Assembly: GCA_938003855.1 (NCBI GenBank)
Contig: CALKXD010000287.1
Span: 1-32,702 of the forward strand
Source: an uncultured Granulosicoccaceae bacterium
GTDB lineage: Bacteria > Pseudomonadota > Gammaproteobacteria > Granulosicoccales > Granulosicoccaceae
Length of the DNA: 32,702 nt
Direction of reading: 5' to 3'
The notes beneath the pieces are model-generated. The model saw only the letters and a program-made list of their open reading frames with translations, did no database searches and was not told the DNA's origin. A program made the position numbers and the translations under genes. Below, piece after piece: positions 1,633 to 14,855 of this stretch (positions are counted from its first letter, which is position 1; every line of letters begins with the position of its first letter).

Positions 1633-2976
1633 TCAGCCAGTATTGTTGGCTCGCAGACAGTAGTATAAGTAATCTTCGCTGATTAATCGATAGAAGTCGT
1701 CGCTATCGGGCAGATCTATTTTGCTCAGGTGTGAGCCTAGCGGTCGGGGGATCGGTGTGCCAAGCTTGTGGGTGAAATACCAGGCCAGTACTTGTGGTGG
1801 TGGAGGATCAGCGATGTTGCCGGCAGCACTTAGCATGGTTTGTTTTTCACACACGCTCTGATGCAAAGCGGTGTATCGTCCGTCAAGCTTCAGCTGATTG
1901 ACTATGCCGGTCTGCAGGCCGGTGGTGCTTTGCTGTAACTGAGTGACCCGTGCGGCGTCTTCGAGTAACTGTGTGAGAGATGATTCATCCAACCCGCAGT
2001 TCTCCATATAGGAACCAATTTCTTTTCTGGTGCTTAAACGGTTGTCTGCCTTAAATTGTCTGAGAGCAGATTTTACCTCTGCCGCCGTTGGCTGTGTGGT
2101 GGCGGGGTTCCGGGCCAGGTGATGAAGCAGCGCCTGTCTTTTGTAGCGGGTGTATGTGTCGGGGTCCAGTCGTAGTTCATCGAGAATATGCCGTTCTTTG
2201 CCGGCCCCAGTGTCATTCGCCGGGCCGTAGAGCTGGTAGGCCCGATCCCATACATTAGTCCATTCAAAGTGGAAGTCGGCAAAAGGAATGTGCCGGGCAG
2301 GGCTGTCGCCTGTTTTCTGTTGGCTGCTATCCTGAAACCGTGCGTGTAAGTGATGAAACAATTGCAGGGCATCCTGCTTTTTGAGATCGATGCGGTTTGA
2401 TTTAATCCAGGCTATCAGTGTCTCATCCGTTTTGCCATCGGATGACTGTTGCCGCTGGCCGGTCAATAGATGCTCCCAGCTCCTTTGCTTATAGAAAGTT
2501 GATTTTGCCGTGCTGATTAATGCCTGACAGTAGGCGCTGTCAATGATTCCCTGTGCCTGTGCCAACGCCAGTGTGGCGCGTATGTTGACCATTGGTTCTG
2601 ATATTGTCAGATAATTTGCCTCGGCCGGGCCGTGTAAAACTGCCACTTCATCATCGTCTTCAACCACGCCGTCACGATACCACTCGAATATCTGCCCGAC
2701 TCCCACCATGCCGAACGGGTTGAGCTCGGCGGCTCGCAGCGCACCCATGCTCGAGCAGCCATAGACCGGTACGTTCTGATCCAGCGCGTAGAGGATTTCT
2801 TTGTGCCAGACAGAAGCGGCTCCCTCAAAGTAGCCATCAATAATAGCAATGGCATCGGGCTTCAGTTGCAACGCGGTTAAGATGTCACCATGCTGGACCG
2901 GTGGCAGATGCGCGCACTTCAGGTGCGGCGCATGCTGAGCGGGGTTGATGGTAGGCCCGGCAAATACAACGATCAT
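1633..2976 (-). CDS. tfuA: TfuA domain protein, partner of YcaO
   Basis: The N-terminal part matches the TfuA domain: a short beta strand near 1-6 (IVVFAG), IDGYF at 46-50, WHKEIL at 57-62, GCSSMGALRAAEL at 73-85, IFEWYRDG at 96-103 and an acidic stretch DDDEVAVLH at 107-115. At 447 residues it is much longer than the core domain; the helical C-terminal two thirds resemble nothing I can name. TfuA proteins are known from trifolitoxin production and, with YcaO, from backbone thioamidation of peptides and of methyl-coenzyme M reductase, where TfuA is thought to help deliver sulfur. The ATG overlaps the stop of the YcaO gene (ATGA), so the two are probably translationally coupled. The domain identity is clear; the target is not. 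Confidence 0.9.
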   Translation of the reverse strand: MIVVFAGPTINPAQHAPHLKCAHLPPVQHGDILTALQLKPDAIAIIDGYFEGAASVWHKEILYALDQNVPVYGCSSMGALRAAELNPFGMVGVGQIFEWYRDGVVEDDDEVAVLHGPAEANYLTISEPMVNIRATLALAQAQGIIDSAYCQALISTAKSTFYKQRSWEHLLTGQRQQSSDGKTDETLIAWIKSNRIDLKKQDALQLFHHLHARFQDSSQQKTGDSPARHIPFADFHFEWTNVWDRAYQLYGPANDTGAGKERHILDELRLDPDTYTRYKRQALLHHLARNPATTQPTAAEVKSALRQFKADNRLSTRKEIGSYMENCGLDESSLTQLLEDAARVTQLQQSTTGLQTGIVNQLKLDGRYTALHQSVCEKQTMLSAAGNIADPPPPQVLAWYFTHKLGTPIPRPLGSHLSKIDLPDSDDFYRLISEDYLYYCLRANNTG

Positions 2977-4274
2977 AGTGGCGTGTCCTGCCGTGCCGAC
3001 AATGCCCTGACGCCAGGCTGATAGCTGTCATCATCGTGTGGTGCTTCAAGTCCCGGTACAACAATACGAACCACGTTGATATCGTATTGAGGTTTGCGCA
3101 AATCTACACGCAGCACCTGCGTTATGTTGCAACGACGTAGTTGCTTGAAAATCTGATTGAGATCCTGCTGTACGGATCCCGTATCCAGGTCGGTGGTTCG
3201 TGAAAAATCCGCAGTAAATGATGACTGATCTATGTAGCGTTGAAAATACTCGTGCTTCGAACTTCTGCCTTCATCAGTGTATTCATACCGGGTGATGTCG
3301 TCACGCGCACCGACAATATAAGTGGTGCGCACCTGCACAGCTTCGTGCAAAGCGCGTAACAGAGCCACCTCCCGGGACAAATGGGTGCCCGACCCTATCC
3401 CTATATGCTGACTGTGGATGCTGCGGTCGCGGATAACGCAGAAGTAACCGGGCAGACCGGTATCAGTGGTGATATCCCAGATTCGCGTGTCTTGCTCAGC
3501 GGCATCAAGTTTAGCCAATGTTTGCTGACACAAAGCGCTGTCGATGGTTTGACGATTGAGGGATGTGCGGTCGATTGCTGTGTGGTTGAGTTGCTGCCAC
3601 AGCGTGAGTGCGTCCCGCTCCACTACTTCACAGATTCCGTGAATTGTCGCCTCATCAATACTGTTGCCCGAAGCCAGTCCATTGCTACTGGCATGAAAAC
3701 AACCGGCCCCTGACGGGCGCGGGTAGGTATAGTTAGTGTGCACCATCTCGTAGGGTAGCCAGATCGGTGAACCGTCGATCAGATTTGTTGATTCAATCCA
3801 GCTAATTGGAAAGTGTGCGTCGAACGGAGAACCTGCTGCCTGTGGCAGACGGTCGGTATCAACTACTGATCCGGTCTGCTGCAGATCTGCCAGAGTAGCG
3901 ATTCGCAGCGGCAGGTTGATATGCTCTGCGTGGAAGCTTTCTATGCTTTCCATCAGACCTGATACTTTGGCTGCCTCCAGGCTGTGTCCCTTACCTTGTG
4001 AGACAGAAACCGAGCGTGAGTTGGGCCTGCACACCATTACCACCGGAATGCCGATGGTATCGAGTCCGGTGACATCAGCAATTCGTGTGATACCCATCGA
4101 TTCCATGTGTGGACTTACACGGGCCAGTGTCTGCTGAGGGTTCCGGATGCGGTGTGTGCCTGTTCGATAGCAAATTGAATCGTTTAGTTTTTGCATAGCA
4201 GGGGCTTCTTCCTGGAAGTGTGTTACCGCACTTACCGCACTTACCGCACTTTGGGCGCAGGCATTGCTCGACAT
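2973..4274 (-). CDS. ycaO: YcaO-family ATP-dependent cyclodehydratase/thioamidase
   Basis: Three blocks of the YcaO ATP fold are visible: QGKG with ESIE at 93-112, SNGLASG running into EVVERDA at 197-222, and EVALLRALHEAVQVR at 302-316. YcaO enzymes use ATP to activate backbone amides, giving azolines, amidines or thioamides. The C-terminus lacks the PxPxP tail usual in azoline-forming members, and the partner is TfuA, so thioamidation is the likely reaction. Two starts are possible: ATG 4274 with GGTGAG six bases upstream, or ATG 4196, which drops 26 poorly conserved-looking residues including a Ser-Ala-Val triple repeat. The protein is 433 or 407 residues long. It appears to be the first gene of its operon, divergent from the flavoprotein gene. 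Confidence 0.92.
   Translation of the reverse strand: MSSNACAQSAVSAVSAVTHFQEEAPAMQKLNDSICYRTGTHRIRNPQQTLARVSPHMESMGITRIADVTGLDTIGIPVVMVCRPNSRSVSVSQGKGHSLEAAKVSGLMESIESFHAEHINLPLRIATLADLQQTGSVVDTDRLPQAAGSPFDAHFPISWIESTNLIDGSPIWLPYEMVHTNYTYPRPSGAGCFHASSNGLASGNSIDEATIHGICEVVERDALTLWQQLNHTAIDRTSLNRQTIDSALCQQTLAKLDAAEQDTRIWDITTDTGLPGYFCVIRDRSIHSQHIGIGSGTHLSREVALLRALHEAVQVRTTYIVGARDDITRYEYTDEGRSSKHEYFQRYIDQSSFTADFSRTTDLDTGSVQQDLNQIFKQLRRCNITQVLRVDLRKPQYDINVVRIVVPGLEAPHDDDSYQPGVRALSARQDTPL
4223..4249. repeat. Three perfect tandem copies of a 9-base unit
   Basis: The unit TTACCGCAC occurs three times without interruption. On the coding strand it gives repeated Ser-Ala-Val between the two candidate YcaO starts. 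A change in copy number would keep the frame, so it would vary the length of the N-terminus or of the leader rather than switch the gene off. Confidence 0.85.
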
Positions 4275-7776: not shown

Positions 7777-8117
7777 TGTATTTTCGCCTTCTCCGTTATT
7801 GTAGCGCGCATTCACTTCGAAAGAAAAACCAATTTTCACCTTTTTGCCTTTGGTGTCGGTATTTTAATCCCTGGAATTCAAATAATAGTGACATCCGTGG
7901 TTATCGAATCCTGCCGCTATGCGACCGCGATGACACCTTGGCAAAGCGTCCTTTGATGGGTTAGTGCGCGGTCTTCAGGCGCTGCCGTTTGCACCGGGGT
8001 TCGCTGAAGTTGCCACCATGCAAAGATCCGGTACCAGTCAATCGAATTTCAGCGTGGCGTTGTGCTGCGATTTGCTGGTAGTCTGTCCGGCCGTTAGAGA
8101 GCGCTGATTTTTGAACG
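7777..8117. other. Divergent intergenic region between amn and sulfotransferase
   Basis: The 341 bases between the two divergent starts hold no supported gene; plus-strand frames of 60-73 codons here have no ribosome binding site or recognisable content. The minus strand has a TACAAT -10-like box just upstream of the amn ribosome binding site, with only a poor -35 match 17 bases before it. Confidence 0.4.
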
Positions 8118-9041
8118 ATGAATTCAGACAACCGCCAACGACGAGTCTTAAAACGGCCCGCTAATGTTGTTGAACTGATGGAAGTTATGGGGCGCTCGGA
8201 AACTCCCGAAAGCAGAGCGGCTGGTATGGCGCTGCGTTCACGCGCGAGTGATGTCTTTATCTCTACCTACCCGAAAAGCGGTACAACCTGGATGCAGCAG
8301 GTAGTGCATCAAGTCAGGTGCGGTGGTGATGAAGATTATACCGATATCTATGATGTCGTGCCGTGGCTGGAGATGGCGCTTGCTCTGAACGTGGACCTGA
8401 CGGCGCAGCAGGCGGGTGGTTTTCGAGCTTTCAAAACGCATCGACCGTATCAGGAGTTGCCCAAACCCGGACGCTATATCAGTGTGTTTCGTGACCCGAA
8501 AACGGTGGTGCCTTCGTTTTATCGTTTTCTGGCTGACTGGTACTTTGAAGCGAGCGGTGTGTCGGTTGACGAGTTTGCACGTCTGGTGTACCTGGCATCG
8601 CCGGACGGTCACAGAAATCACTTTGCTCAGTGGCTCGAGCGCTCTCAGGAAAAAAACACGCTGCTGTTGTGTTACGAAGATATGCTGGAGAACCCCGATC
8701 AGGTCCCTGAACTGATCGCGGACTTTCTGGAGGTGCCGCTCGATGCGGCAACGCTTGCGCGCGTCAAACACAACTGCTCTCGATCCTATATGGTCGCCAA
8801 CGAAAACCTGTTCGATGATCATCTGGTCAGGCAGCAGCTGGATGCGAGTCTTGGTTTACCCCCGGGAGGCGGGTCATCGAAGGTGTTCAGTGAAAAGTCT
8901 GACAATACACCGGGCCCCGAACTTATCGCTGAGCTCGATCAGCTGTGGGCAGATACGGTTGGTCTGGATTCGGGTTTTGATAACTACCTGACGTTGCGCC
9001 AATCAATGCCCAATCCGCTGCAGGCCAGGCGTCTGTGCTAA
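8118..9041 (+). CDS. PAPS-dependent sulfotransferase domain protein
   Basis: This 307-residue protein belongs to the cytosolic (Sulfotransfer_1-type) sulfotransferase family, which moves sulfate from PAPS to hydroxyl or amine acceptors. YPKSGTTW at 51-58 is the 5'-phosphosulfate loop and SVFRDPKTVVPSF at 122-134, with R125 and S133, is the 3'-phosphate binding site. LLLCYEDML in the middle and the late GGGSSKVFSEKS segment also fit the family. There is no signal peptide or membrane segment. The ATG has only a weak ribosome binding site. No sulfate-activation genes are nearby and the acceptor cannot be guessed. Its stop is followed by a strong hairpin shared with convergent kynU. Confidence 0.9.
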   Translation: MNSDNRQRRVLKRPANVVELMEVMGRSETPESRAAGMALRSRASDVFISTYPKSGTTWMQQVVHQVRCGGDEDYTDIYDVVPWLEMALALNVDLTAQQAGGFRAFKTHRPYQELPKPGRYISVFRDPKTVVPSFYRFLADWYFEASGVSVDEFARLVYLASPDGHRNHFAQWLERSQEKNTLLLCYEDMLENPDQVPELIADFLEVPLDAATLARVKHNCSRSYMVANENLFDDHLVRQQLDASLGLPPGGGSSKVFSEKSDNTPGPELIAELDQLWADTVGLDSGFDNYLTLRQSMPNPLQARRLC

Positions 9042-9043
9042 CG

Positions 9044-9076
9044 CATGCCCGGATTAAAATACATTTCCCGGGCATG
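9044..9076. terminator. Candidate bidirectional terminator hairpin
   Basis: CATGCCCGG and CCGGGCATG make a perfect nine-base-pair stem around a 15-base AT-rich loop, between the convergent sulfotransferase and kynureninase genes. No U-run follows on either strand, so it may also be a 3'-end stabiliser. Confidence 0.5.
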
Positions 9077-9119
9077 TGTGCGGTAAGTCGTATTTGTGGT
9101 TGCCGTGTTAATACAGCGC

Positions 9120-10367
9120 TCAGGTGACCATTTTTTTAACGGCAAAGCGTTCTTCTTTCCATTCTTCGGTTCGCAGTATGTCGTGCAGGTGGTTGGCGGC
9201 GTCCCAGAGGTCAACGTAGCGTAGATACAGTGGCGCGATGCCAAAACGCAGTACATCGGGTTGACGGAAATCTCCCATTACCTTGCGGGCAATAAGGGCC
9301 TGCATAATGGCGTAGCCATGCTCGTGCGTCAGTGACACCTGACCGTTGCGTTTATTGACATCCTTCGGGCTGTAAAAACTGATCCCGTATGCAGAACAGT
9401 TATGCTCAATGAGGTCGGCAAACACTGTTGAGAGTTTTTTACCTTTGGCATACAGCGCCTCCATACTGACGTCTTCAAAAATGTCCAGCCCCGCACTGAC
9501 CGCGACCTGTGCCAGCGCAGGCTGTGTGCCGGATAACAGCGCTCGTGCACCGGCACCGGGGCGGTAGTTCAGTTCAAATTTAAAAGGTTCTGCGTGACCA
9601 TGCCATCCGGTCAGTGGCTGGCTGAACTTACCGTGATGCCGCCTGGCCACATAGGCGAAAGCCGGAGAACCCGGCCCGCCGTTGAGGTATTTGTAGGTAC
9701 AGCCAACAGCAAAGTCGACATTTTCTTCGTGCAGATTGACCGGAATGGCTCCCGCTGAGTGGCAGACATCAGAGATTACCAGTGCGCCTGCCGCATGGGC
9801 TTTCGCCGTCAGGCCTTTGATGTCGCGGATTTCGCCGGATCGATAGTCAACCTGGTTGAGTAACACCACAGCGGTGTCGTCGGTAAACAGATCTTCGATG
9901 TTGTCCGCATCGCGTCCTTCCAGTACCACGTTCATGTCACTCAGCAATGACGTGACGCCTTCAATCATGTAGAGATCAGTGGGGAATGATGCGGTTTCAC
10001 AGACAATGGTTTTTCGGCCGGGTCGCATAGAGATCGCTGCATGCAGCGTTTTATAGATATTGAGGCCGGTAGCGTCAGAGACAACCAGTTCACCGGCGTT
10101 GGCACCCAGCAGCTTTGCCACACGGTCACCGAGTGTGTCAGTCATCATGAACCAGCCAGCGGTATTCCAGCTGGTTACCAGGCCTTTGGCCCAGTCTTCT
10201 GTCAGCGATGTCTGTATTTTCGACAGGGCGTGTTTCGGCATCGGTCCCAGTGAGTTGCCGCAAAGATATATCACCCCATCCGGTAGGAAGAACTCATCGC
10301 GCTTGTGCGAAAGCGGATCTCCCTGGTCCATTGCTATTGCGTCGTCGCGGGTGACCGGTGTTGTCAT
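9120..10367 (-). CDS. kynU: Kynureninase
   Basis: Kynureninase is a PLP enzyme that cleaves L-kynurenine to anthranilate and alanine in tryptophan breakdown. The 415-residue protein shows the N-terminal YLCGNSLGP motif, SDATGLNIYK, the DVCHSAGAIPV segment with the PLP-contacting Asp, and CTYKYLNGGPG, where K226 is the Schiff-base lysine. The length matches bacterial KynU. The frame continues 37 codons upstream, but the ATG at 10367 has GGAG nine bases before it and begins the conserved part. No tryptophan dioxygenase or formamidase gene is next to it, so the rest of the pathway must lie elsewhere. Confidence 0.96.
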   Translation of the reverse strand: MTTPVTRDDAIAMDQGDPLSHKRDEFFLPDGVIYLCGNSLGPMPKHALSKIQTSLTEDWAKGLVTSWNTAGWFMMTDTLGDRVAKLLGANAGELVVSDATGLNIYKTLHAAISMRPGRKTIVCETASFPTDLYMIEGVTSLLSDMNVVLEGRDADNIEDLFTDDTAVVLLNQVDYRSGEIRDIKGLTAKAHAAGALVISDVCHSAGAIPVNLHEENVDFAVGCTYKYLNGGPGSPAFAYVARRHHGKFSQPLTGWHGHAEPFKFELNYRPGAGARALLSGTQPALAQVAVSAGLDIFEDVSMEALYAKGKKLSTVFADLIEHNCSAYGISFYSPKDVNKRNGQVSLTHEHGYAIMQALIARKVMGDFRQPDVLRFGIAPLYLRYVDLWDAANHLHDILRTEEWKEERFAVKKMVT

Positions 10368-10522
10368 TGTAAAGTGCTCCGGTGAGTTACGGTAATGCCG
10401 GGGGCGGCAACGGCAGTTTACGCGTTTTTCCTCGATGATTGGGGAATACGATATCAGGTTGCAAGCGTCGATTCCCACAACGATAAAACCTTACGGCGGG
10501 AAGTTATCACCCCTGTGAGCCA

Positions 10523-10550
10523 TTGACATTTCCGTCCTGTTACTTAACCC
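10523..10550 (+). promoter_or_regulatory. Possible promoter for the lipoprotein/subtilase/MBL cassette
   Basis: A perfect TTGACA -35 box is followed after 16 bases by TAACCC, a poor -10 box, in the divergent gap between kynU and the plus-strand cassette. Only the -35 element is convincing. Confidence 0.25.
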
Positions 10551-10642
10551 TTGTCCTGTGATTGTTTTGTGTGTGTCGACGCTACCGACACGCCGCAACA
10601 CCGCCGTGTTCAGCGCGGCGTTAAAAGGAGAGGAGAACAGGG

Positions 10643-11287
10643 ATGTGGCATATACCAGGCGCGATCTTGATAGCGATTACACTGTGGTTGAGCACAGGCT
10701 GTACCTATTTAACGCCACCGCTTCAGCGACCGGTCATTGAGGACAAGCTCGGTCCGAGTCTGTTTGCCAGAGACGAGGTCATGGGCACGTTGTCTCTCAC
10801 ACCGGAGCGGCGGGTTGTGCTGGTCAATTTTGCCAATCAACGGTTCTGCGCCGAAGCGCCAACTGAGGTGGGTCTTGACCTGTCCCGTTTACTGCAAACA
10901 GATGTTGCCGCCGATGCACCGGGCAAAGGCGCGGTCGCTTTGGGCCTGCTGATCGGATCAAGCAATAGTAACTCGGTGTTAAATAAGCGCTCTCAGGCAA
11001 TTCAGTTGTTTCTAGCGAACTCCTACTACACCTGCCAGATGTATTTAAACGGCGCAATCAGCGGCGAGCAACTGGTCGAGTTGCAACTGAAAACCCTCAA
11101 CAGCATTGCACCGATTCTTGAAATAGAATTGCCACTGCTCTATCAGGGCAATGAAGAGGCGGCTGCCAGGCCGGGGGCATCGCGCTATCTACCGTTGGAC
11201 ACCAGCGAAATTCTTGATGATCTGTTTCGTGGTTCGTTGCAGTCGTCCGACGAAGAACAGGAAAAATCCGCGCAGCCGGGAGAGTAA
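10643..11287 (+). CDS. Putative lipoprotein of unknown function
   Basis: The 214-residue protein begins with a hydrophobic stretch ending LSTGC, so Cys20 could be lipidated; the lipobox is atypical because Ser instead of Leu is at -3 and there is no N-terminal Lys or Arg. VLVNFANQRFCAEAP at about 61-75 resembles a Phe-Cys-Ala-Glu motif that I recall from uncharacterised proteobacterial lipoproteins. A region near 100-150 contains YYTCQMYLNG, so a second Cys could pair with the first. The tail is acidic. AGGAGAGGAG before the ATG is a strong ribosome binding site. It is followed after 45 bases by the subtilase gene, probably in one transcript. Its function is unknown. Confidence 0.7.
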   Translation: MWHIPGAILIAITLWLSTGCTYLTPPLQRPVIEDKLGPSLFARDEVMGTLSLTPERRVVLVNFANQRFCAEAPTEVGLDLSRLLQTDVAADAPGKGAVALGLLIGSSNSNSVLNKRSQAIQLFLANSYYTCQMYLNGAISGEQLVELQLKTLNSIAPILEIELPLLYQGNEEAAARPGASRYLPLDTSEILDDLFRGSLQSSDEEQEKSAQPGE

Positions 11288-11332
11288 ACAGCCACTGGCA
11301 AATCACAGCGTTTGCTGCACCATGGAGTGACA

Positions 11333-13483
11333 ATGGCTAAGACAACATCCACTGCCCGAAGGCTGCACCCGAGACTTCGGTTGCTGAGAAATGGCAGCAA
11401 AGAGGTTAACGGCTGCCGTACCGAACTGTGCACAACAGTCGCAAGACGCGGGATTGATTCAGGTACAGACAATGCGATGCCGACACAGATATCGGGATTG
11501 GATCTGACCGCGGCACAACAGCAGTCGGTTCAGGCTGATTTCAGTGCGCGGTCTATCAGCGTGCAGCGGACGGCTGGTAAAAAGTTGCCCGGACGCAAAC
11601 CGATGGAGCAACAGGAGAAAGCAGACGACAGTTTCGTTAACGTTTTTATCAGCGTTGAAACCGGCTATGGTGATCACTCGACCAATATTGCCGAAGTTGT
11701 TCAGTCGGTTACCGCTTTATGTCAGCGGCATGGCGTCGATACTGACCACAACGGTTTGACCGAGCAGGTCAGACTAAGTGGTAACCTGTTGCTCGCTACG
11801 GTACCTATTTCGTCGCTCGATGCACTGGAGCAGGATGCGCGGGTATCGTTTGTACAGCCTGCCGAACCCTTAAAGCTCGATATCCCACGTGGCAGTCCTG
11901 CAGCAAAGCCATCTAAAAGCCGATTCCGGCTCGATAAACATCATCGCTACGGTGAAAATATCATTATCGGCATCATCGATGTGGGTGGCTTTGATTTTAC
12001 CCACCAGGATTTCCTCAAAGAAAACGGCAGGACCCGTTTTACCCATCTATGGGATCAGGGGGGAGATTTTCGTTCAGCACCGGATGGATTTAACTACGGT
12101 TCCGAATTCACTGAAATGCACTTCAATAATGCCCTTGATGCAGAGCGCGAGGGGGGAATGCCGGCGTTGCTGCTGGAGCCTCAGTCACAATCCATGGTCG
12201 GTTCCCATGCAACCCATGTCGCCGGTATTGCGGCGGGTAATTCGGGTGTTTGCCGCAATGCAGAGATTGCCGCTGTATTGATTGATGTGCCGCAGCCAAC
12301 AGATGATCGTCAGCGGCGTCAATTTACATTTTCTGATTCAAGCCGGGTAACACATGCGGTGGAGTATCTGCTGGGTATCGCCCGCGAGCGCCGCAAACCA
12401 ATTTCGATCAATATCAGCCTGGGCACCAATGGCGGAGGGCACGACGGCTCGAGTGGTGTCACACGCTGGATCGATAATGCAATGCAGCAACCCGGTCGCA
12501 GTATCTGTCTAGCTGCCGGGAACGCCGGGCAGGAGCGCGGCCTCAGTGATCGCGATTTCGGCTGGATTGCCGGTCGTATCCACAGTAGCGGCCGTATAGC
12601 CTCGCGCGGGCTGGATGCAGAGCTTGGCTGGGTGGTGGTTGGCAATGGCATTCACGACCTATCAGAAAACGAGCTTGAAATCTGGTACAGCGCCCAGGAT
12701 CGATTCATTGTCGAGTTACTCCCGCCTGGAGACGACCGTTGGCTGCGGGTAGAGCCTCAGGACTTCATCGAAAATAAACGCCTCAAGGATGGCACGGTCG
12801 TGTCAATCTATAACGAGCTTTATCATCCATCGAACGGTGTAAATGCGATCTCACTGTATTTGTCACCCCATCTGGAGCCGCGCAATATTCGCGGGGTGCG
12901 GGCCGGGGTCTGGCGCGTGCGTTTGATCGGCGAGGAAATTCGCAACGGCGAGTTCCATTGCTGGATAGAGCGGGACGACCCCGCCGAGATTGGTCAGGCA
13001 GAGCAACAGCGACTGATGCGATTTCCGTCATTTTTTTCCGAATATTCTAATGTTGACTCGCATTCTATCTCGTCACTGGCCTGTGGTAATGCCACTGTTG
13101 CGGTCGCTAATTACAACGCCTCGACCAATAAGATGAACATCACCAGCAGTCAGGGGCCTACTAGAGATAATCGCTATAAACCCGACCTGGCCGCACCGGG
13201 GACAGATATCACTGCTGCCAAAGGATTTGCTGCGGATGGTGATGACTGGATAACCATGAGCGGCACCAGTATGGCCAGTCCCTATGTGGCCGGTGTTATT
13301 GGACTGATGTTGAACGCAAACCCGGAGCTCAATTCCCGTCAGTGTCTGGGCATTCTGCAGAGGACCAGTGTGCCGCTGCCCGGCCGGACCTATGAATGGA
13401 CCAACGATGCGGGGTTTGGCCGCGTCGACGCTAATCAGGCCATTGCAGAAGCGGTGGATTTCACCAAGCGGACGGAACGCTGA
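11333..13483 (+). CDS. S8 family subtilisin-like serine protease
   Basis: The 716-residue protein carries the full subtilase triad: D216 in GIIDVGG, H292 in SHATHVAG and S646 in GTSMASP, with oxyanion Asn397 in AAGN. Roughly 200 residues precede the catalytic domain. About 250 residues lie between N397 and S646, far more than in subtilisin, and include a beta-rich part (LEIWYSAQDRFIVELL and GVRAGVWRVRLIG) reminiscent of the jelly-roll insert of Csp-type subtilases. No clear signal peptide is visible, so it may be cytoplasmic. GGAG five bases before the ATG at 11333 decides the start over an in-frame ATG seven codons earlier. The MBL-fold gene begins 16 bases after its stop, which points to an operon. 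Confidence 0.9.
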   Translation: MAKTTSTARRLHPRLRLLRNGSKEVNGCRTELCTTVARRGIDSGTDNAMPTQISGLDLTAAQQQSVQADFSARSISVQRTAGKKLPGRKPMEQQEKADDSFVNVFISVETGYGDHSTNIAEVVQSVTALCQRHGVDTDHNGLTEQVRLSGNLLLATVPISSLDALEQDARVSFVQPAEPLKLDIPRGSPAAKPSKSRFRLDKHHRYGENIIIGIIDVGGFDFTHQDFLKENGRTRFTHLWDQGGDFRSAPDGFNYGSEFTEMHFNNALDAEREGGMPALLLEPQSQSMVGSHATHVAGIAAGNSGVCRNAEIAAVLIDVPQPTDDRQRRQFTFSDSSRVTHAVEYLLGIARERRKPISINISLGTNGGGHDGSSGVTRWIDNAMQQPGRSICLAAGNAGQERGLSDRDFGWIAGRIHSSGRIASRGLDAELGWVVVGNGIHDLSENELEIWYSAQDRFIVELLPPGDDRWLRVEPQDFIENKRLKDGTVVSIYNELYHPSNGVNAISLYLSPHLEPRNIRGVRAGVWRVRLIGEEIRNGEFHCWIERDDPAEIGQAEQQRLMRFPSFFSEYSNVDSHSISSLACGNATVAVANYNASTNKMNITSSQGPTRDNRYKPDLAAPGTDITAAKGFAADGDDWITMSGTSMASPYVAGVIGLMLNANPELNSRQCLGILQRTSVPLPGRTYEWTNDAGFGRVDANQAIAEAVDFTKRTER

Positions 13484-13499
13484 TGGCAGGTGCCTACCG

Positions 13500-14816
13500 A
13501 TGAAATTGCAACTGTTCGATTCCGCTGAGGGCGACTGTCTGTTGCTGCAGAGCGCTGATGGCAGGAACATACTCTGTGACGGCGGTCGAAGCTCCAGTTT
13601 CCGTAGGCACACGCGTGAGCATTTTGATGAATTGCTTGGCAGTGGCGGGCAACTCGACTACCTCTATGTCTCTCATGTTGATCAGGACCACATCCAGGGC
13701 ATAGAGCAACTTCTCAAAGATGCCCTGGCATGGCAGGTGTACGATTATCACCACGATAATGGCGATAGCGTGCGCAAGCCGGAGGCACCGCGTCCGCCGC
13801 CAATCGGTGGTATCTGGCATAATTCATTTGGTGATCAGGTTGGTGATAATCTGGGTGAAATATCTGATCTGCTGGCGCAGTCTGTCCCCGTGATGTTTGC
13901 GTCGGGTCTTCCTGACCTTGAGCACGCGGCCTACGAGGCGCGCAACATTGCGGCATCGATACCACAGGCATTGCGTGTCTCGCGGTTTTGTCAGCCGGAT
14001 CTACTCGATATACCCATCAATGTGCTGCCGGATAACCCCTGTGCATCACCGCTATTGTATACCGACGGCACTGTTCGTAAATTTTCCGTCGGGTCTCTTG
14101 AGTTAACGTTACTCGGACCCACCGAAAAAGCGCTGGATGACCTCCGCGAAGGCTGGAATAACTGGCTCGCCAGTAGCGGCGGTGAAAAAGCCGTAAAAAA
14201 ATTTCACGACTATATAGAAAAACAGCTGGCACGTTTTGCCACCGGTAGCCTCTCTACTACACCGTTTGATCTATTTAACTGGAACGGAATTCCAGACTTC
14301 CGGGGTGTGACCACGCCGAATGTGGCGTCCCTGATGTTTATGATCGAAGAGGATGGTAAGCGGGTGCTGTTTACCGGTGACTCGCAGCAGGATGTCATAC
14401 TCGATGCGCTGGCCGAGGCCGGGTATCTCGACGATGGTTTTATCCATGTTGATGTGCTCAAAGTGCCGCACCACGGGTCAGAGCATAATATGGACAAAAA
14501 CTTTGCCAGACGCGTATCAGCAGATCACTATGTGTTCTGCGGTGATGGCAGTAATGGCAACCCGGAACCGTCTGTGATTGATATTCTGTATAAATCGAGA
14601 ATCGGTCCGGTCAGTCGCCGGGCCATGGCGCCGGAAGCTGATAACCGTGATTTTACATTTTGGTTCAGCACCGCGCTGGACAAGCTCAATCCGCAAAGCG
14701 TCAATCACGAAAAATTTAAAAAAACGCTGAGCAAAAGTTTGCAGCGGCAGACTGAAAGCGGCAGTTTATTGCAGTTGAAATTTGTTGACGGCGACTATTT
14801 AACAATTGCGGTATAG
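13500..14816 (+). CDS. Metallo-beta-lactamase-fold hydrolase, ComEC/Rec2-like
   Basis: The 438-residue protein opens with FDSAEGDCLLL and ILCDGG, as in the soluble MBL domain of ComEC relatives. HVDQDH at 59-64 is the HxDxDH metal site, D294 in FTGDSQ the bridging Asp and KVPHHGS with H324 and H325 the late motif. Such proteins are two-metal hydrolases, often acting on nucleic acids or phosphodiesters; the substrate here is unknown. No signal or membrane segment is present. The frame is open upstream inside the subtilase gene, but ATG 13500 has AGGTG before it and begins the conserved domain. The tight spacing to the subtilase suggests joint function. Confidence 0.85.
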   Translation: MKLQLFDSAEGDCLLLQSADGRNILCDGGRSSSFRRHTREHFDELLGSGGQLDYLYVSHVDQDHIQGIEQLLKDALAWQVYDYHHDNGDSVRKPEAPRPPPIGGIWHNSFGDQVGDNLGEISDLLAQSVPVMFASGLPDLEHAAYEARNIAASIPQALRVSRFCQPDLLDIPINVLPDNPCASPLLYTDGTVRKFSVGSLELTLLGPTEKALDDLREGWNNWLASSGGEKAVKKFHDYIEKQLARFATGSLSTTPFDLFNWNGIPDFRGVTTPNVASLMFMIEEDGKRVLFTGDSQQDVILDALAEAGYLDDGFIHVDVLKVPHHGSEHNMDKNFARRVSADHYVFCGDGSNGNPEPSVIDILYKSRIGPVSRRAMAPEADNRDFTFWFSTALDKLNPQSVNHEKFKKTLSKSLQRQTESGSLLQLKFVDGDYLTIAV

Positions 14817-14817
14817 A

Positions 14818-14841
14818 GCCGGACTGCCGACAGCGTCCGGC
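14818..14841. terminator. Candidate bidirectional terminator hairpin
   Basis: GCCGGAC and GTCCGGC form a perfect seven-base-pair stem with a ten-base loop between the convergent MBL gene and the ABC permease gene. CGGTTGTT follows on the plus strand, a poor U-tract. Confidence 0.5.
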
Positions 14842-14855
14842 CGGTTGTTATGCGC

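Follow-up and report, generated by a model that had tools for sequence, protein, structure and literature searches.

A conserved gene pair of an S8 subtilase and a ComEC-type nuclease bearing two insertions: a candidate protease-activated nuclease module in Bacteria

What is the role of a subtilase gene that directly precedes a gene for a ComEC-like hydrolase of the MBL fold? This arrangement occurs in a stretch of 32,702 nucleotides from an uncultured Granulosicoccaceae bacterium, the whole of which is hereafter called the window. The original prediction described a cassette of three genes, for a putative lipoprotein, an S8 subtilase with an insert and a ComEC-like MBL hydrolase, and suggested that the protease might activate, or be activated by, a partner of a type that often acts on nucleic acids. 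That the three genes stand in a row is borne out by the open reading frames and by Pfam and PADLOC matches. The features are as follows:

7840..14855, no strand: accessory stretch of ~7 kb with sulfotransferase, kynureninase-like, lipoprotein, S8 and MBL genes, absent at this site in the congener G012
10643-11287, + strand: putative lipoprotein gene, 214 aa, no Pfam match
11312-13483, + strand: S8 subtilase gene, 723 aa from TTG, PF00082
13500-14816, + strand: gene for an MBL-fold, ComEC-type nuclease with two insertions, 438 aa, PF00753
13722..14090, + strand: codons of insertion 1, MBL residues ~75-197, placed by alignment with Avs1a, HamA-linked, caspase-linked and ComEC proteins
14118..14309, + strand: codons of insertion 2, MBL residues ~207-270, placed by alignment and pLDDT

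The start of the MBL gene was set at ATG 13500, which matches the alignment of its relatives; the mechanical ORF begins at GTG 13368. For the S8 gene, an ATG at 11333 also fits as a start, and the gap that separates it from the lipoprotein gene is 45 bases to this ATG or 24 bases to the TTG at 11312. The S8 and MBL genes are 16 bases apart; both spacings given previously, 45 and 16 bases, were correct. On the 5′ side of the lipoprotein gene lie a kynureninase-like gene on the opposite strand and a sulfotransferase gene, both named by Pfam (window 8118-10478), which share the 7-kb accessory stretch with the S8-MBL pair. On the 3′ side of the MBL gene are ABC transporter genes on the opposite strand, the first of which encodes a permease. 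Further away, TfuA-like and YcaO genes adjoin each other at 1633-4274 and are possibly a thioamidation pair. The Pfam-named genes around the pair are metabolic, transport, YcaO/TfuA and flagellar genes, and no infection sensor was recognised when 23 of the 28 window genes were scanned with Pfam, which left five of these 23 without a match. Promoter-like and terminator-like sites were no commoner than in shuffles.

A conserved S8-MBL neighbourhood, which the original prediction proposed to look for, was found. Among genome contigs, 239 stretches contained a confirmed MBL relative; in the best 80 of these 239, an S8 gene lies directly upstream of the MBL gene in 75 cases and directly downstream in one, adjacency being counted from the MBL match starts, as mechanical MBL ORFs have long false starts. 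The spacing ranges from -11 to +50 bases in 74 of the 75 upstream cases (+238 in the remaining one), and in these best 80 relatives the two genes often share a 4-base stop/start overlap. In L096 (9989-12619) the order is reversed, the MBL gene coming first and the S8 gene following 39 bases later. S8 is absent by profile in four of the best 80 relatives, where the MBL neighbours are a C11 peptidase (L081), an M23 protein (L094), an Amidase_2 protein (L097) and nothing recognised (L102). The C11 (clostripain) peptidase gene follows the MBL relative in L081 (9998-12446) and perhaps encodes one more protease partner. We also noted that one member of the pair can be split over two ORFs (MBL in L016; S8 in L029, L039 and L047).

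The same linkage is observed on plasmids, since the 12 best S8 matches fall in the same 12 plasmid records as the 12 best MBL matches, at adjacent positions; the plasmids bearing the pair include predicted conjugative ones. Hosts belong to eight phyla (Pseudomonadota, Acidobacteriota, Actinomycetota, Bacteroidota, Chloroflexota, Myxococcota, Gemmatimonadota and Planctomycetes), some of them assigned from record titles only. Moreover, the distances among S8 proteins follow those among MBL proteins, the correlation being 0.948 for the 58 pairs of clade I, which include that of the window, and 0.926 for the 22 pairs of clade II; none of 2000 permutations reached the observed value in either clade. 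Rows with an S8 shorter than 550 aa, an MBL shorter than 340 aa or an S8 score below 150 had been left out, which kept 80 pairs. These correlations show that the two genes of the conserved pair are inherited jointly, either by vertical descent or by joint transfer, between which they do not distinguish. The opposite finding, homologues that occur apart from each other, is contradicted among close relatives, although no MBL gene lies near two more distant homologues of S8 (36% identity).

The lipoprotein gene does not share this conservation. Its product has a hydrophobic N-terminus ending in LSTGC, with S at -3, which we take to be a weak lipobox; the corresponding ends in three relatives are LTGC, LLTAC and LLAGC. 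The gene was found in the window genome only among the 14 genomes of the genus, no relative was detected in 47 other genomes of the family, and no match was obtained in plasmids. It could be proposed that the lipoprotein is a true third component, serving as membrane sensor or anchor, as its gene lies on the same strand as the pair at that short distance upstream, and as a relative by profile (4.3e-14, four-row profile) sits 194 bases after a patatin-S8-MBL set in L100, although BLASTP gave no significant match between the window and L100 lipoproteins. A loose scan likewise detected lipobox-like starts in 18/397 near genes versus 17/817 others. In contrast, a stricter scan of directly adjacent genes, with a motif that rejects the window's own LSTGC, revealed no enrichment (5/175, versus 18/1067 elsewhere in the loci and 8/502 in controls; p 0.36 and 0.34), and the three relatives detected in 397 other genomes of the phylum (L198-L200) have no S8-MBL pair nearby. 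We therefore consider a third-component role highly unlikely and judge the lipoprotein to be a neighbour, not a conserved partner. Thus, of the proposed cassette, S8 and MBL do belong together, while the three-gene unit was dropped because the lipoprotein is not conserved with them.

The S8-MBL locus is accessory. No MBL match was found in the 13 congeners of the window genome, and in one of them, G012 (L145), the matches of the flanking AMP nucleosidase (89% aa identity) and permease (95% aa identity) genes end 122 bases apart. Of 397 other genomes in an even sample of the phylum, two have S8 relatives (E<=1e-30) and eight have members of the MBL family (E<=1e-15). A genome of the window's family, G034, carries a distant, clade II pair; in this locus (L156:3047-10138) a Tle1-like gene, a possible lipoprotein gene and a further gene precede S8 and MBL. 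The pair might be a housekeeping or scavenging unit whose protease and hydrolase degrade protein and nucleic acid independently, and the mostly metabolic and transport functions of the Pfam-named window neighbours would fit. This patchy presence, the plasmid-borne relatives and the correlated divergence of S8 and MBL argue against such a unit, which appears very improbable. A phage or viral origin was also considered and rejected: six relatives from viral contigs match over just 58-93 residues, an earlier scan of viral contigs found none, and phage records gave five matches, all weak or partial.

The S8 protein matches Pfam PF00082 (9.8e-25) in two stretches. From the N-terminus, it comprises a conserved segment (alignment consensus PKLRM.ANG...VN..RAE), a disordered linker, a prodomain-like domain (~107-188) and a catalytic domain with a beta-rich insert. 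Residues D223, H299, H302 and S653 are invariant in 36/36 aligned rows, and no N-terminal signal sequence was seen by eye in the S8 or MBL protein. The AF2 model (pLDDT 83.0) best matches the structure of CspA (9pr9; Z 35.7, rmsd 3.2, 510 aligned), and the match to CspB is close behind (4i0w; Z 33.6, rmsd 3.2, 445 aligned). Indeed, CspA, CspC and CspB outrank all other subtilases, the next best having a Z of 28.4. On the basis of this model, S8 is predicted to be a Csp-like protease. CspB activates a zymogen, pro-SleC. S8 shares the subtilase fold, the prodomain and the beta-rich insert with the Csp germination proteases CspA, CspB and CspC, but it scores far under the NCBIfam cut-offs of the family (138 bits against 1250 for CspBA and 122 against 675 for CspC) and differs from them in that the neighbour of its gene encodes a nuclease-like protein.

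The MBL protein matches Pfam PF00753 (Lactamase_B, 1.2e-6), and its top PADLOC models are LmuA (1e-42), RTasMBL (8.4e-30) and Avs1a (6.4e-25). Its AF2 model (51 sequences, pLDDT 86.8) is closest to the MBL domain of ComEC (9ic4; Z 23.2, rmsd 2.6, 242 aligned). The metal ligands are intact, H59, D61, D63, H64, D294, H324 and H325 being invariant in 51/51 aligned rows. However, H59 and H324 are separated by 265 residues in the window protein, versus 108-136 in 9/9 ComEC rows, and this surplus between the metal motifs corresponds to the two insertions. In a single 17-row alignment, both insertions align with those of nucleases that are Avs1a (L184), AVAST-like (L215), HamA-linked (L216) or caspase-linked (L187, L188, L190 and L218), whereas both are missing from the two ComEC rows. 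In insertion 1, 14/15 non-ComEC rows share a W-[HF]-N motif, which reads WHN in the window protein. Model confidence is low in both insertions, at residues 111-150 of the first (pLDDT block means 58-69) and 221-270 of the second, with values below 50 at 249-268. Among 40 clade I rows, no residue conserved above 90% that could mark a cut site was found within 111-150 or 223-269. According to the main text of PMC12799240, HamM, Avs1a and CanC are ‘gated pro-nucleases’, which are switched on when a partner trypsin-like protease or caspase cuts their insertions. By its anatomy, the window MBL protein very probably belongs to this family.

What surrounds the pair elsewhere? Of 96 MBL loci, 19 have a phospholipase gene within ~1.5 kb, either a patatin (14) or a Tle1-like one (5), as against 0/27 control regions from genomes holding such loci (Fisher p 0.013). 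This test is post hoc and generous, since the profiles derive from the very loci under test and each related locus adds to the count; among the 19, the gene of L066 is not confirmed by Pfam. In the even sample of the phylum, which yielded nine MBL genes in eight other genomes, both S8-MBL loci (L213 and L214) also have a patatin match, that of L213 being a 122-aa ORF only. The pair could thus be a single arm of a larger module, where S8 would control a membrane-attacking phospholipase as well and of which the window keeps the nuclease arm only. Most clade I loci, like the window itself, have no adjoining phospholipase gene and, with the generosity of the test, this leaves the two-armed arrangement unlikely. 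We also observed a patatin gene that adjoins an MBL relative, with no S8 gene nearby, in L217 (6337-8605, near the contig end) and at the second MBL gene of L218 (3473-6086).

The Tle1-like family takes its name from T6SS effectors (Pfam PF09994), which raises the question of whether the pair acts against other bacteria, by exporting or maturing a secreted nuclease or phospholipase, and not against phages. Among the annotations of the plasmid loci viewed there is no T6SS structural gene, by eye S8 and MBL do not display the signal sequence that secretion would suggest, and MBL relatives occur in AVAST, HamA-fused and ABC-3C loci; this alternative is quite improbable. Other MBL genes of the even sample neighbour trypsin-domain proteins (L215; L216, where the protein is fused to HamA; L220, with an ABC-3C domain; and L219, a weak match below the cut-off), and in L218 the partner is a caspase.

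Further neighbours recur in rhizobial loci: FRG (L025 and L029), XendoU (L019, L021 and L022) and DUF1353 (L016, L023, L024 and L071). On plasmid pCMU01 of Methylorubrum extorquens CM4 (L027:555-7230), PycC (2e-220), E2, PycTIR (4.5e-92), S8 and MBL genes stand in a row, and the pair thus lies directly behind a Pycsar operon. At 1e-8, 57 PADLOC families matched the 143 proteins encoded by neighbours, versus 13 in 144 control proteins, redundant models of one protein being counted apart. The direction of these counts is as expected for an enrichment in defence genes, which, given the redundant models and unlisted families, they neither establish nor refute. They compare 24 of the 80 genome-contig loci with 24 of the 27 control regions, from mechanical gene calls, and count families per set, not matched proteins; 25 of the 57 families are listed by name. 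In L100, the lipoprotein ORF was manually substituted for two called genes, which explains the total of 143 proteins. Finally, in the part of PMC10907252 that bears on this point, an S8 peptidase is described beside STAND proteins in a putative conflict locus.

Altogether, we propose that S8 and MBL constitute a two-component, protease-activated suicide nuclease module, probably directed against phages, a reading to which we assign a probability of about 60%. The MBL protein would be synthesised in an inactive state, as a ComEC-type DNase with the two insertions lying over its active site. Upon a trigger, probably phage infection, which S8 would sense itself or through an unlinked factor, the protease would cut one or both insertions, and the freed nuclease would degrade DNA, such that the cell is stopped or killed. 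Activation of MBL through cleavage by S8 seems somewhat better founded than the module as a whole, and defence against phage as the purpose of the pair stands at an even balance. The pair is conserved and co-inherited, its catalytic residues are intact and its insertions are placed as in published gated nucleases. The module is favoured by the adjacency, the correlated distances, the placement of the insertions and their low pLDDT, the precedent in the main text of PMC12799240, the Csp fold, the Pycsar neighbour, the accessory stretch and the conflict locus described in part of PMC10907252. Against it stand the lack of a recognised sensor among the scanned window genes and of a residue conserved above 90% in the insertion stretches, the indecisive defence-gene counts at chromosomal loci, as well as the S8 homologues (36%) without MBL and the MBL relatives beside patatin without S8. 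The idea of a protease that activates a nucleic-acid-cutting partner therefore gains from a conserved pair and from a mechanism published for the MBL family (main text of PMC12799240), but the lipoprotein has no place in it.

The pairing of a protease with a gated nuclease is already known from PMC12799240, whose main text names no subtilase; what appears new is S8 as the partner. Further protease families do occur according to that main text, and S8 may appear in Figure 4A or the supplements, which annotate protease families. No title among the matches listed in full-text literature searches named an S8-MBL defence pair. If our reading is true, proteolytic firing of gated nucleases extends beyond trypsin-like proteases and caspases, and a stand-alone two-gene pair would offer a minimal system for how one protease senses a threat and picks its substrate. 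More tentatively, and on balance doubtfully, subtilases would join the protease classes that fire gated immune nucleases, as one S8-MBL lineage across many phyla, and at some loci a single protease may release both a DNase and a phospholipase, like a branched caspase cascade. The recurring phospholipase neighbours make this ‘one protease, two executioners’ idea directly testable.

Two trees bear on whether S8 is the ancestral partner. In a first MBL tree (56 rows, midpoint root on the ComEC branch), trypsin- and caspase-linked rows fall inside the S8-linked ones. In a larger tree, which has ten more rows and lacks L191 (long branch) and L005, the S8-linked rows cluster with four S8-less rows in a single group (88/93), outside of which lie the trypsin- and caspase-linked rows. 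The branching order thus differs between the two trees. The proposal of S8 as ancestral partner was withdrawn, as the larger tree places the trypsin and caspase rows outside the S8-linked group.

How does the pair compare with known systems? Its MBL protein has the fold and metal ligands of the ComEC DNA-uptake nuclease domain, but the latter has neither insertion and is part of a larger protein. The closest PADLOC models, Lamassu LmuA and DRT RTasMBL, belong to systems for which no partner gene was recognised among the window genes scanned, PADLOC covering six window proteins. In comparison with the 6A-MBL system, the window protein scores 35 bits on the NCBIfam equivalog NF058524 (cut-off 220). 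Likewise, it scores 113.6 bits on the Avs1a equivalog (cut-off 420) and differs from AVAST type 1 in that no protease-STAND gene lies beside it, the next gene being the ABC permease on the other strand. The strongest likeness is to HamMAB, Avs1ab and canu (CanABC) as described in the main text of PMC12799240: the nuclease belongs to the same family and carries its two insertions at matching positions, an adjacent protease gene is co-inherited and, in canu, this gene lies upstream of the nuclease gene, as in S8-MBL. Unlike in these three systems, no HamB, STAND or CanB-like partner was recognised in the window, the protease is not fused to a defence core and, by Pfam match and fold, it is neither trypsin-like nor a caspase but an S8 subtilase.
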